From Candidatus Aegiribacteria sp. MLS_C (GTDB taxonomy: Bacteria; Fermentibacterota; Fermentibacteria; Fermentibacterales; JCC-6), in NCBI GenBank assembly GCA_002030045.1, contig LQBI01000013.1, positions 195,374 to 259,373 of the forward strand: a stretch of DNA of 64,000 nucleotides, written 5' to 3'. A program made the position numbers and the translations under genes. Shown here piece by piece: positions 10,476 to 60,668 of this stretch; position 1 is the first letter of the stretch, and each line of letters begins with the position of its first letter. The notes beneath the pieces were generated by a model that searched no databases, was not told where the DNA came from, and saw only the letters and a program-made list of their open reading frames with translations.

Positions 10476-12011
10476 ATGTCGATAATGAAGTCCGTCAACG
10501 ATTTTCTCAGCCTCCTCGCCAGCAAGCTCAAGGGCGGCGATGAGAAGGCCATCGATCAGCAGAGGAAAAAGGGCAAGAACACCGCCAGGGAAAGGGTGGA
10601 GCTGCTGCTCCTCGATCCGGAGTCCTTCATTGAGATAGACCTCTTCGTGGAGCACTCGGTCAAGGATTTCGGAATGGAGAGGAAGGACCTTGCCGGGGAC
10701 GGAGTCATCACCGGTTACGGGAAGGTGGAGAACAGGCCCGTGGCGGTCTTCGCCCAGGACTTCACCGTGGCGGGAGGCTCCCTGGGCAGGGCCCACTCAA
10801 AGAAGATAGTCAAGGTGATGGACGGTGCCGCAGAAGCCGGCATACCGTTGATAGGGATAAACGATTCGGGCGGCGCCAGGATACAGGAGGGGGTGGAGTC
10901 CCTCTGCGGTTACGGCGAGATATTCTACCGCAACACGAAGCTCAGCGGGCGGGTTCCTCAGATCTCGGTGATACTCGGTCCCTGCGCCGGGGGAGCCGTC
11001 TATTCACCGGCCCTCACCGACTTCGTCTTCGTGGTGGACAGGATATCGAACATGTTCATAACCGGCCCGCAGGTCATCAAGACGGTCCTCGGGGAGGAGA
11101 TCTCCCAGGAGGAACTGGGAGGGGCCATGACGCAGGCCTCGATCACCGGGAACGCCCATTTCTATTCCAGGAGCGAACCCGAGGCCTTCGACACACTGAA
11201 GAGACTCCTTTCCTTCCTTCCTCCCAACTCCGGGGAGCAACCACCAGAAAGGAAGGACGTGCTTCCCGAGAAGCAGCTGGGAGACGATGTCATACCTGAC
11301 AACCGCAGGCGGGCGTACTGCGTCAAGGAGCTGATCAGGGGCATAGTAGACGGATCCGACTTCCTGGAGGTCCACGAGCACTACGCCAGGAACATAGTGG
11401 TCGGTTTCGCCAGGCTGTCGGGCAGGTCCATCGGCATCATAGCCAACCAGCCCCGGGTACTGGCGGGCGTCCTCGATGTCAACGCATCGGACAAGGCGGC
11501 CAGGTTCATCAGATTCTGCGACTCCTTCAACATCCCGCTTCTCACTATGGTGGACACACCCGGTTACCTTCCCGGCGTCGACCAGGAGCATGCCGGGGTC
11601 ATCAGGCACGGGGCCAAGGTACTCTACGCGTACAGCGAGGCAACCGTCCCCAAGATGACGCTGATAATGCGAAAGGCCTACGGAGGTGCCTACATCGCCA
11701 TGTGCAGCCGTCATCTGGGCGCCGACTTCGTTGCTTCCTGGCCCAGCGGCGAGATCGCGGTAATGGGTCCGGAGGGGGCGGCCAACATCATATTCAGGAA
11801 GGAGATCGCCGAGGCCGACGACCCCGACGCCTGCAGGCAGGAGAAGGTCAGGGAGTACGAGGAGAAGTTCGCCAATCCCTACGTGGCTGCAAAGAAGGGT
11901 TACATCGACACCATCATCAGGTCCAGCGAGACAAGGAACACCCTGATAAAGGCCCTCTCCATGCTCAAGCAGTCCAGGACGGGCGCCGCCCACGGCAACA
12001 TCCCGCTGTAG
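10476..12011 (+). CDS. Acyl-CoA carboxyltransferase subunit (MmdA/PccB-like)
   Basis: 511 residues, full length for the biotin-dependent carboxyltransferase family. It has the two crotonase-like halves: GINDSGGARIQEGVESL and GPCAGGAVYSPALTD in the first (CoA/oxyanion region), and DTPGYLPGVDQEHAGVIRHGAKVLYAYSEATVPKMTLI plus KAYGGAYIAM in the second. This fits propionyl-CoA carboxylase beta or methylmalonyl-CoA decarboxylase alpha. The start follows GAGGGG. A biotin carrier gene follows at 12021. No biotin carboxylase or membrane decarboxylase beta subunit is visible, so carboxylase versus sodium-pump decarboxylase cannot be decided here. Confidence 0.92.
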   Translation: MSIMKSVNDFLSLLASKLKGGDEKAIDQQRKKGKNTARERVELLLLDPESFIEIDLFVEHSVKDFGMERKDLAGDGVITGYGKVENRPVAVFAQDFTVAGGSLGRAHSKKIVKVMDGAAEAGIPLIGINDSGGARIQEGVESLCGYGEIFYRNTKLSGRVPQISVILGPCAGGAVYSPALTDFVFVVDRISNMFITGPQVIKTVLGEEISQEELGGAMTQASITGNAHFYSRSEPEAFDTLKRLLSFLPPNSGEQPPERKDVLPEKQLGDDVIPDNRRRAYCVKELIRGIVDGSDFLEVHEHYARNIVVGFARLSGRSIGIIANQPRVLAGVLDVNASDKAARFIRFCDSFNIPLLTMVDTPGYLPGVDQEHAGVIRHGAKVLYAYSEATVPKMTLIMRKAYGGAYIAMCSRHLGADFVASWPSGEIAVMGPEGAANIIFRKEIAEADDPDACRQEKVREYEEKFANPYVAAKKGYIDTIIRSSETRNTLIKALSMLKQSRTGAAHGNIPL

Positions 12012-56927: not shown

Positions 56928-56952
56928 AGCTCAGGTTAAACTATTTCAACTC
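56928..56952. repeat. Left terminal inverted repeat, copy A
   Basis: 25 bp starting AGCTCAGGTT and ending TCAACTC, followed by AATTGACC as in copy B. Perfect inverse of 57803-57827. Confidence 0.85.
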
Positions 56953-56974
56953 AATTGACCTTTTAACTTATTGT

Positions 56975-57590
56975 TTATGATAATAGAGTGGAAGATTCCG
57001 GATCCTTCTGAAGGTATCGGGCAGCCATCATGAAAGAAGGTCCCATGAAACGTGCTGCATCAGAAAAGTTCATACCGAAATCATCAACGAGCAGTCTCGC
57101 GGGTTTCCTTCTATTTCCGGACGCTGCCCTGTCCCCCAAATCTCCTCGGTGATCGGGCGTAAATCCGGAATAATCGGAAACAGTATGCAATAGGTTCATG
57201 GCAGCAATATGCTCATCCTGTCTATTCCTGATCCTTATCTTCCTATCATTCCTGAGCTTATCGTATACATCGCACATAAGGGAGCCGGTGCCAGTACTCT
57301 TCTACTGCCTTTTTCATGTTGCTCGTCACTTGAACTTTGTATAGCTGTCATTCCTCAGCTGCTGATAATATGGGAGCCATGCTTGCACCTGTCACTTTCA
57401 GCTTATGAACCCATCCCGAAGTGAGTCCGGGAATTTGCTTACCCAGTCTCTTTTCTGCAGTGTATTGAGAACCGCGACCTGACAGTGTCCATTGTCTGCA
57501 GAAGAAGGTGAAAACGATCGAAGTGAGTGCACCTGCATACAGTCTGAAGAATCCTTTTCGACCCGCTTATGAACTTCCTTCTAGATCATC
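56975..57590 (-). pseudogene. Truncated RAYT-like transposase remnant
   Basis: The C-terminal part is still open (56975-57277: YDKLRNDRKIRIRNRQDEHIA, TVSDYSGFTP, LLVDDFGMNFSDAARFMG), closely matching the intact copy. Upstream, traces continue out of frame: the nucleotide stretch near 57450-57510 matches 60055-60110 of copy B, then jumps to the part matching ~60370-60430. An internal deletion of about 270 bp is implied. The N-terminal HxH region is lost, so it is inactive. The right boundary of homology is approximate. Confidence 0.75.
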
Positions 57591-57802
57591 TGCCTCATGG
57601 CTCCACTGTCGCAGAGTGACTTCCGGATATTCCCCTCGAATTTTTCCACAGTGAATAATTCTCCTCCTCCTGGTTTGCTGGTTGGTTGTGCACAGCAAAA
57701 ACAATCGAGGGAATGATGGGGGGCTCCTAATCAGCTGCTAGGGTTTCAAGAAAAAAAAGGATACGATCTACTATTTTGCTGGTAGCATTAAACTGCTCTA
57801 AA

Positions 57803-57827
57803 GAGTTGAAATAGTTTAACCTGAGCT
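57803..57827. repeat. Right terminal inverted repeat, copy A
   Basis: GAGTTGAAATAGTTTAACCT... ending GAGCT. Identical in sequence to the right end of copy B at 60644-60668. Confidence 0.85.
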
Positions 57828-57926
57828 GGGTTGCGCTCGGCTGAAGGGAGTTGGCGGCGCTCTCTTCATCGGCAATAGTATGTGTCCGGTCCGGTGACCA
57901 CCCTGACCCGAAGGGAGATCCCGTAA

Positions 57927-59537
57927 ATGCCTTCGATTCGATCAAGTGATACGATATCGACCGAAGGACGTCGCGATCTGCTCTTCTACGGTCTGGCACT
58001 GGTCGCCGTGAGCCTTCTCTATCTTCTGGTTTTCGCCGATATGCCCATCTACGGAGACGCCTGGGGTTACGGATACAACAGCTCCAGATGGATCTCCGAA
58101 AACGGGATGCCCCTCCTGCCATCCGGCACCGGTCGGGGAGAGAACGCCGGAGGTCACGCTGCTTTCTACTTCTGGATGTGGGCCGTGCTGATGCGTCTGA
58201 TGGGCGATAGCGTTGAGGTTGCCCACCTGCTGCCGGCGCTCTTCGCCTTCATGACCGTTGCAGGTACCTACCGTCTGGGCCGGGAACTCTCCGGCAGGAC
58301 ACTGGGGGTTCTCGCCGGGACGGCAGTTCTGATCAGTCCGATCTTCCTTGCACAGGCATTCCGTCCTCTCCCCATCTCCGCTGCGATGGCTGCTTCGGTA
58401 TGGTCACTGCTGATGTACCGGAGAGGAAGATACGCGGCAGCGGCGGGACTCTGTTTCTTCGCCGTGATGATGAGGGAACAGGCTCTTCTTCTGGCTGTCA
58501 GTTACGTGGCCGCGGAACTCGTAGGCAAGGGCGACCGGAAATGGTCAAGAATAGCACTTCTAGCAACTCCTGTGCTGGTACCGGTGGTTAACGGAATATC
58601 GAACTACCTGGTGAACGGTTACGTGCTTCCCGCCGGGAACACGCCAGGTTTCGACCAGCCGTTTTCCCTAGGTCTTTTCCTTCACCGGCTGAAGTTCTTC
58701 GGTTACCTACTTGTGGGCGATCTCCGCTGGCTGCCCATATCCGTGTCGTCCGGCATCGCCCTGGGCAGAACGACCGGCAGCATGAGGGCGGGAACAGTCG
58801 CTGCAGTCATACTGTGCTTGACCGGTGCGTTCACGAGGTTCACCAACTACTTCCTTGTGCTTCTTTCGATGGTCCTTCTGCTTGCAGTGATTGCCAAAAA
58901 GAGCAGACCGGACCGGACCACGGTTGCTATGGTACTATTCCCTTGCCTGATGGTACTTTCGTTCACGGCCATAGTGTTCTTCACATCCACGAGAATGGAA
59001 TACATGTTCCTGCGATACCTGCTGCCGGTGTTCCCCGCCCTGGTCCTGATCATGCTGTGGCCTCTGGATGGATACGGCTGGAAAGGAAGGGTGCTGCTTG
59101 CGCTTTTCCTTGCCGGAACGGCAGCCAGCAACCTGTCGGTAAGGAACAGGGTCAACTACGTCGACTCCACCCTTGCAGGTTACCTCATGCCTTTGAGTGC
59201 CATTCGAGAAGCAGGGGTCTGGGCGGCGGATACCGGTCTGCCCATAGTAGCCGCTGGAGAAGCTCCAATGCATTTCGGGAATCCGGCCCTGGGCTATTCC
59301 GATACCTCCCTTACGGTGGTTCCTATCTGGGATATTCCCGGTGGTCTACTGGAAAGGGAACTTGCCATTGTGGTGCCGCCGATTCTGCCTTGGGGGCATG
59401 ACGGTGAAGCACTGCTGGATGAATTCCTGAGAGATGTGGGGTGTGAGGACCGGCTTACTCATGAACTCACCGTAAGAAGGGGACCTTTCACAGCCGACTG
59501 CTACATCCTGAAAGCTTCTGCTCAAGCTCAGGATTAA
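57927..59537 (+). CDS. GT39-like (ArnT/PMT type) membrane glycosyltransferase
   Basis: 536 residues with about eleven membrane segments. The first luminal loop FADMPIYGDAWGYGYNSSRWISENGMP carries the acidic residue expected of GT-C enzymes, and the loop after it GGHAAFYFWMWAVLMRLMG fits the GT39/PMT_2 pattern. A soluble C-terminal part follows. It would use a lipid-linked sugar to modify protein or lipid on the outer face. The last residues (QAQD) and the TAA stop are supplied by the left repeat of element B, so the original C-terminus may have been altered. AAGGGAG precedes the ATG. Confidence 0.78.
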   Translation: MPSIRSSDTISTEGRRDLLFYGLALVAVSLLYLLVFADMPIYGDAWGYGYNSSRWISENGMPLLPSGTGRGENAGGHAAFYFWMWAVLMRLMGDSVEVAHLLPALFAFMTVAGTYRLGRELSGRTLGVLAGTAVLISPIFLAQAFRPLPISAAMAASVWSLLMYRRGRYAAAAGLCFFAVMMREQALLLAVSYVAAELVGKGDRKWSRIALLATPVLVPVVNGISNYLVNGYVLPAGNTPGFDQPFSLGLFLHRLKFFGYLLVGDLRWLPISVSSGIALGRTTGSMRAGTVAAVILCLTGAFTRFTNYFLVLLSMVLLLAVIAKKSRPDRTTVAMVLFPCLMVLSFTAIVFFTSTRMEYMFLRYLLPVFPALVLIMLWPLDGYGWKGRVLLALFLAGTAASNLSVRNRVNYVDSTLAGYLMPLSAIREAGVWAADTGLPIVAAGEAPMHFGNPALGYSDTSLTVVPIWDIPGGLLERELAIVVPPILPWGHDGEALLDEFLRDVGCEDRLTHELTVRRGPFTADCYILKASAQAQD

Positions 59538-59549
59538 CTATCTTAACTC
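59525..59549. repeat. Left terminal inverted repeat, copy B
   Basis: AGCTCAGGATTAACTATCTT then AACTC, followed by AATTGACCC. Holds the stop codons of both the GT39-like gene (59535-59537) and the transposase (59538-59540). Confidence 0.8.
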
Positions 59550-60563
59550 AATTGACCCTTTAATCCTTTTTTCTAATAATAGAGTAGATGGATCAAGTTC
59601 CTCGTGAACGTAGCGCGCCACGATCGTAACCGAAAGCCCCATGAAACGTGCTGCATCCGAATAGTTCATACCGCAATCCTCAACGAGCAGTCTCGCGAGT
59701 ATCCTTCTGTATCTGGACAGTTTCCTTGTCCCTCCCGATCTTCTCAATGACTCGGGTGTGAATCCGGAATAATCAGAAACTGTATTCAGTACGTGTATGA
59801 CAGCAAGATGCTCATCCTGTCTGTTCCTGATCCTTATCTTCCTCTCATTCCTGAGCTTATCGTATGCGCTCCTCACAAAGGACTCTGTACCCACCAGCCT
59901 GATCATTCCCCTGTCAGAGCGATCGTTATGACGGTTTTCTACTTTAGATATTCCTTTGCTGTTTATGATATGGGATCCATGTTCACACCTGTCACTTTCT
60001 GTCTGTGAACCATCCCGCAGGAAATCAAGGTAATTGCTTGTCCAGTTTTTCACTCTGCAGTGCATAGAGAACTGCGACCTGACCATGTCTGTTGTCTGCC
60101 AGGGATACTCCCTCAGTCCTGTGATGTGCAGGTGACCACTCGGCATGTACCCGCCAAGGTCCTCGACAGAACTGACTATTCCAGCTCGAAGAGGATTCAG
60201 ATGGATGTATCTTACCAGCTCCATGAAATAACTATCCTTGTCGACGAGTATGGACCTGAACCTGCTCTGGAAAAGGTGGCCCTGCCTGTTCCTCGTCTTG
60301 TTGAAACGCATGGCGTAACCCCCGAGCAGCCTTTGCATGCTTCTCGAAACGCTCTCATCCGTGCGCTCAAGAAGCAGGTGAAAGTGATTGGACATGAGTA
60401 CCCATGCATGCAGTCTGAAGCATCCCTCCTCGACCAGGGTTCTCATCCTTTCGGTGAAATCAGCCTGATCTGACTTACGAGAGAATATCGCTCTTCCATC
60501 CACCGCCCTGCATATGACGTGATGGAACGAACCCGGTTCATCCACCCTGCCGTTGTATCTCAT
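59538..60563 (-). CDS. RAYT/Y1-family HUH transposase with C-terminal HTH extension
   Basis: 341 residues. N-terminal Y1 domain: FHHVICRAVDGRAIF, LHAWVLMSNHFHLLLER (HxH metal pair), GHLFQSRFRSILVDKDSYFMELVRYIHLNPLRAGIV with the nucleophile Tyr region. A variable middle (~180-230) leads to a C-terminal DnaA/HTH-like domain (NYSDAARFMGLSVTIVARYVHEE). Such enzymes cut single-stranded DNA at hairpins. Here the gene is tightly enclosed by 25-bp inverted repeats and its TAG lies inside the left one. All visible motifs are intact. Confidence 0.87.
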   Translation of the reverse strand: MRYNGRVDEPGSFHHVICRAVDGRAIFSRKSDQADFTERMRTLVEEGCFRLHAWVLMSNHFHLLLERTDESVSRSMQRLLGGYAMRFNKTRNRQGHLFQSRFRSILVDKDSYFMELVRYIHLNPLRAGIVSSVEDLGGYMPSGHLHITGLREYPWQTTDMVRSQFSMHCRVKNWTSNYLDFLRDGSQTESDRCEHGSHIINSKGISKVENRHNDRSDRGMIRLVGTESFVRSAYDKLRNERKIRIRNRQDEHLAVIHVLNTVSDYSGFTPESLRRSGGTRKLSRYRRILARLLVEDCGMNYSDAARFMGLSVTIVARYVHEELDPSTLLLEKRIKGSIELR

Positions 60564-60643
60564 GGAATGATTGTACTCCGCATCCAGGGATATTTCAAGA
60601 GCCCGGGGTTCCCCCAGCTGGTTAAGTAATAAAATGCGGAAAA

Positions 60644-60668
60644 GAGTTGAAATAGTTTAACCTGAGCT
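60644..60668. repeat. Right terminal inverted repeat, copy B
   Basis: GAGTTGAAATAGTTTAACCT then GAGCT, identical to 57803-57827. Confidence 0.85.

Follow-up and report, generated by a model that had tools for sequence, protein, structure and literature searches.

A probable TIRtron in Candidatus Aegiribacteria sp. MLS_C: a Y1/HUH transposase gene between inverted ends with tandem 9-bp iterons

The window (the whole 64-kb stretch of DNA that was analysed) in all likelihood holds a TIRtron, that is, a TIRYT-type Y1/HUH transposase gene with its cognate terminal inverted repeats, present as one intact copy (copy B, 59525-60668) and one decayed copy (copy A, 56928-57827). The assignment was made by comparing features (signature, repeats and C-terminal domain) with the published description. 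In the working proposed with it, the C-terminal domain of the enzyme, which resembles domain IV of DnaA, would bind the two tandem 9-bp iterons of each end and so bring the Y1 domain to the outer box to nick and rejoin a single strand there; the unit would mostly be inherited at a fixed site and occasionally be re-inserted elsewhere, often just past the 3' end of a gene.

Table 1. Features of the two units and their surroundings (positions in the window).
Feature	Position	Strand	Basis
Intact Y1/HUH transposase gene, probably TIRYT-type, 341 aa	59538..60563	-	PF01797, REP_Tyr_transpos, AlphaFold2 model
Catalytic core motifs NHFH (aa 59-62) and YIHLNP (aa 119-124)	60192..60389	-	Alignment of relatives
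C-terminal DnaA domain-IV-like predicted DNA-binding domain, aa 253-341	59541..59807	-	Structure and profile match
Copy B, 5' terminal inverted repeat	60644..60668	+	Exact 25-mer, lag-9 repeat test
Parts of the copy B 5' repeat: iterons AGTTGAAAT and AGTTTAACC, outer box TGAGCT	60645-60653, 60654-60662; 60663-60668		
Copy B, 3' terminal inverted repeat, diverged, with the stop codons of two genes	59525..59549	-	
Copy A, decayed transposase, N-terminal catalytic part lost	56953..57802	-	Comparison with copy B
Copy A, 5' terminal inverted repeat, same as copy B 5' repeat	57803..57827	+	
Copy A, 3' terminal inverted repeat, same as copy A 5' repeat	56928..56952	-	
Membrane glycosyltransferase-like neighbour, last codons and stop in copy B repeat	57927..59537	+	Weak PMT_2 match

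Two copies with shared ends

The two copies lie in the same orientation with 1.7 kb between them. The 25-mer GAGTTGAAATAGTTTAACCTGAGCT, expected 0 times in 100 shuffles, occurs exactly at three of their four ends (56928-56952 on the minus strand, 57803-57827 and 60644-60668 on the plus strand), the exception being the left (3') end of copy B, which reads GAGTTAAGATAGTTAATCCTGAGCT on the minus strand and differs from it by four mismatches. The first-pass annotation had described two RAYT-like units with common 25-bp inverted ends, a perfect repeat pair in copy A, identical right ends in both copies, and a transposase stop codon lying within its own repeat, all of which is borne out. The transposase stop (59538-59540) and that of the convergent neighbour are both inside the copy B 3' repeat, so that two stop codons abut in one repeat (59535-59540). 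The neighbour, whose product has a PMT_2 match just below the cut-off, is a host gene outside the element. Copy A is, judging from its 75% nucleotide identity to copy B over 579 bp, a decayed sister of the latter in which the 5' third, including the HUH region, has been lost or scrambled. The two copies have flanks unlike each other, a target-site duplication was not observed, and an Rfam search at the site returned no RNA family.

The transposase

The copy B protein matches Pfam Y1_Tnp (PF01797, E 4.7e-10) and, just above the model cut-off, NCBIfam REP_Tyr_transpos. It carries the class 2 Y---NP signature (YIHLNP) together with NHFH, and H60, H62, Y119 and N123, as well as P124, are invariant in the alignment of 21 relatives. 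In an AlphaFold2 model built with these relatives (mean pLDDT 87.5), the N-terminal part aligns with TnpA-REP (4er8, Z 14.4, VIA-align), and residues 253-341 align with DnaA domain IV on DnaA-box DNA (3pvp, Z 14.7, rmsd 1.5 over 89 residues) and with 1j1v (Z 14.6); helical folds may inflate such Z values, and for the DnaA match the sequence profile concurs (match to DnaA chains, E 2.4e-4). The Pfam Bac_DnaA_C match is below the cut-off (E 0.02). The enzyme is, as modelled, a Y1/HUH domain joined to a predicted DnaA domain-IV fold.

Construction of the ends

The window ends read AGTTGAAAT-AGTTTAACC-TGAGCT, i.e. two tandem 9-bp iterons followed by an outer box. Among 25 non-redundant ends, the lag-9 autocorrelation reaches z 5.8 at the 5' ends and z 6.0 at the 3' ends, with z at most 2.8 for every other lag and a lag-9 z of 0.6 in an inner control 50 bp further in; the pattern had been spotted before its test, and the relatives are not fully independent. 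The repeated words vary by group (TTAACT, GCTTGAG, TTCAGAT, AAGAAAC), so the sequence changes but the 9-bp period does not. Six distinct TIRYT ends from another phylum did not show the pattern, and one protein from that phylum, with ends lacking it, also has a Bac_DnaA_C match. Given this absence, the post hoc test and the kinship of the relatives, the iterons are for now to be regarded as a trait of the present lineage. In the literature, no description of tandem 9-bp iterons in TIRYT ends was found.

The other-phylum ends (loci L146-L170) have a design that differs from the 9-bp iterons: they read GGGGTCAAGTC, a short inverted repeat, GTCAAG/CTTGAC, is present in some, and the 3' end reaches up to 22 bp into the coding frame. 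In two distant genomes, the Y1 genes (L053 and L054) are flanked by strong direct repeats or by self-palindromic units, an arrangement more like REP clusters.

The proposal in the first-pass annotation that hairpins stand at both borders was rejected, single-strand folding of the ends being no better than that of shuffles. The periodicity suggests instead that the DnaA-like domain may read the iterons. Quentin and colleagues noted that the published repeats are unlike DnaA boxes (PMC6006769), from which it follows that the C-terminal domain may not read the repeats at all, or that it has acquired a new target; the 9-bp iterons favour a newly evolved target over non-reading.

Ends and positions in relatives

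Inverted ends scoring at least 14 flank 44 of the 46 relatives' genes that were scored, the maximum for the control (68 window ORFs) being 13. Both genes without such ends belong to one genome (G025), and three more relatives, missed by the gene finder of the scoring script, also have inverted ends. The distance from the 5' repeat to the start codon is fairly constant, at 76-97 or 121-127 bp in most members. According to their flanking genes, the relatives occupy a few fixed loci. Of the eight nearest relatives, seven (L026-L031, L034) are placed immediately 3' of ssrA, which encodes tmRNA, with the repeat usually starting at or beside the terminal CCA; the remaining one (L032, in G014) has the other flank in common with them but not ssrA. 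The elements of the ssrA group are 1119-1150 bp long. This position 3' of ssrA is a new observation, as is the concerted evolution of the ends described below. An element directly follows ssrA in G003, G005, G007 (L108), G009, G012, G017, G018 and G019, and none does in G000, G002, G004, G010, G015 and G016. Across the genus, the 3' side of ssrA varies (L102 1-256, L089-L101, L108), being occupied by a TIRtron, a terminator-like sequence or an unrelated one. G007 has two different ssrA genes on two contigs and is possibly a mixed bin. A peptide-pattern scan of genome contigs found no close relatives.

In the protein tree, copy B is nested within the ssrA-resident clade (supports 98/94 and 100/95), with L026-L029 as its sister and L032/L034 and L030 branching outside. 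In its own genome, the 256 bp between ssrA and the end of the contig are unrelated sequence, so a further copy could hide in the assembly gap. Since the window copies fall inside the ssrA clade, are located elsewhere, and nothing abuts their own ssrA, the unit has probably moved, as far as phylogeny can tell; the simplest reading would be one relocation, within or between genomes, and a further copying event giving A and B.

For copies A and B, the search for a filled and an empty orthologous site that keep both flanks gave no such pair: orthologues of their flanking genes exist, and the gene order around them is not conserved. In the comparison of filled and empty sites called for in the first-pass annotation, the ssrA site is filled in some genomes and not in others, and synteny is broken at A and B. 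A CCTCC/GGAGG-like run considered as a target motif beside the ends turned out in several cases to be the tmRNA 3' end (CCGCCTCCACCA), and for this reason no target is claimed.

Solo ends

The whole genome (2.98 Mb in 35 contigs), searched for the ends by pattern and protein searches, contains ten end sites, four in units A and B and six solo, with none for the reversed-pattern control. Four of the six solo ends adjoin a gene whose stop codon is either within the repeat itself or no more than 13 bp from the repeat's outer edge. One solo repeat (L012, 1501-1525) has its neighbour's stop codon inside, as does the copy B 3' repeat. In the 18 other genomes of the genus, the same pattern gives only isolated matches with three mismatches, so this end family is specific to its own genome. 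The solo ends do not appear to be halves of small paired elements, as no inverted partner above chance was found within 1.4 kb. Three of them lie within 8 kb of one contig (L125 6187, 12310 and 14053) with an IS-like transposase ORF (10997-11991) between them; that these sites on contig C30 are the ends of one large unit was considered and rejected, the ORFs between looking unrelated. Probably the same enzyme produced the solo ends or left them behind as relics, and they fit the published solo TIRs (PMC3733652).

The first-pass annotation had envisaged a self-mobile family, and had named ends occurring widely without a transposase, and a single fixed locus with the same flanks in relatives, as observations against it. 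Both were found in part, the former as the six solo sites and the latter in most close relatives, and they make frequent recent mobility unlikely. The shared ends are real, and the lineage has changed position according to the tree and ssrA; occasional movement is supported, and mobility on an evolutionary scale is likely.

Concerted change of both ends

At fixed sites the two ends show concerted evolution. In the ssrA group, the 5' and 3' ends of one genome have an identity of 0.93 to each other, against 0.73-0.76 for the same end compared between genomes, with 8 of 40320 permutations reaching the observed value. At a second locus the corresponding identities are 0.93 and 0.82-0.83 (264 of 40320 permutations). 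The sequence just inside the ends, with an identity of 0.58-0.63 within a genome, has no such pattern. The cause may be selection exerted by the enzyme as the common reader of both ends, or it may be physical homogenisation.

Alternative explanations

Because the relatives are mostly at fixed loci and in low copy number, the enzyme may be domesticated rather than self-moving, the repeats then being autoregulatory operators or sites with a role in the chromosome, and rare recombination having given rise to both copies A and B. The fairly constant spacing between the 5' repeat and the start codon is operator-like, and the solo sites lie mostly just past stop codons. Domestication is nevertheless rather unlikely: a matching repeat is present at the 3' end too, often overlapping the stop codon, the window lineage is at another site than its sister clade, and its genome has two copies with unlike flanks. 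It is also conceivable, and less probable still, that the ends are kept alike without the enzyme or any selection, by template switching or gene conversion between the inverted arms. Template-switch correction is known to act on inverted repeats, and the ends are near-identical even in copy A, decayed as it is, and in L031, whose frame is broken. However, about 1.1 kb separates the arms (0.85 kb in copy A), the likeness is confined to the ends, with no spread inwards, and the 9-bp period stays while the words change.

A REP/RAYT unit with degenerate REP hairpins as flanking repeats is very improbable. The NCBIfam match points that way, and inverted REPs are reported to flank RAYTs in all cases (PMC2817692). 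The REPtron of TnpA-REP (4er8) shares with the window unit the fold of the catalytic domain and the flanking inverted elements. In contrast, no GT[AG]G head with a foldable palindrome flanks the copy B gene, the ends form no stable hairpin, abundant cognate REPs are absent from the genome with its ten sites in all, and the large DnaA-like C-terminal domain is absent from typical REP-associated members. With IS200/IS605 elements (IS608, ISDra2) the HUH/Y1 catalytic fold is shared, whereas the window enzyme has Y---NP instead of Y---Q, is 341 aa long, and belongs to a unit with terminal inverted repeats and without subterminal hairpins.

Relation to known TIRtrons

The probable TIRtron of the window would be of an already known kind, since published TIRYT/TIRtron units have the same anatomy (PMC3733652, PMC6006769). 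The view in the first-pass annotation that RAYTs lack terminal inverted repeats was incorrect (PMC2817692, PMC3733652), and inverted ends are no novelty. TIRYTs, RAYT relatives flanked by long repeats that are not REPs, were named in 2013 (PMC3733652). As in that description, a Y1 gene lies between long inverted repeats unrelated to REPs, and there are several TIRYTs per genome with their own repeats, as well as solo repeat copies. Most published examples have been placed in subclass 2.1 of TnpAY1, listed as Bertels group 1, with HTH or DnaA_C-like C-termini (Quentin 2018, PMC6006769). The window enzyme resembles that subclass in its long protein, the Y---NP signature, a C-terminal HTH of the kinds that include Bac_DnaA_C, a low similarity between copies in one genome and the lack of REPs (PMC6006769). 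The window ends differ from the published ones by having AGCTCAGG instead of GGGGWSAS, a motif common to many published TIRs and not defining, the other TIRs being mutually unrelated, and by their tandem iterons. GGGGACG/GGGGTCG forms are found in the ends of paralogues and relatives.

Implications

TIRYTs are a known but unstudied kind of enzyme, and among the papers searched the name is used by two only. Quentin and colleagues did not settle if the repeats beside the gene are read by the C-terminal domain (PMC6006769), and the 9-bp periodicity is a reason to test it; together with the paired change of the ends, the iterons make reading by the DnaA domain testable by a simple binding assay. 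What is chiefly new is that a DnaA-type domain is paired with 9-bp iterons in co-evolving ends. Possibly, and we put this forward tentatively, an HUH family has taken the DNA-reading domain of DnaA and reads duplex 9-bp iterons with it, enzyme and ends co-evolving, residing for long beside ssrA and rarely moving. If this is true, HUH transposases would gain a mode of double-strand recognition, unlike that of IS608 and TnpA-REP, which read hairpins.
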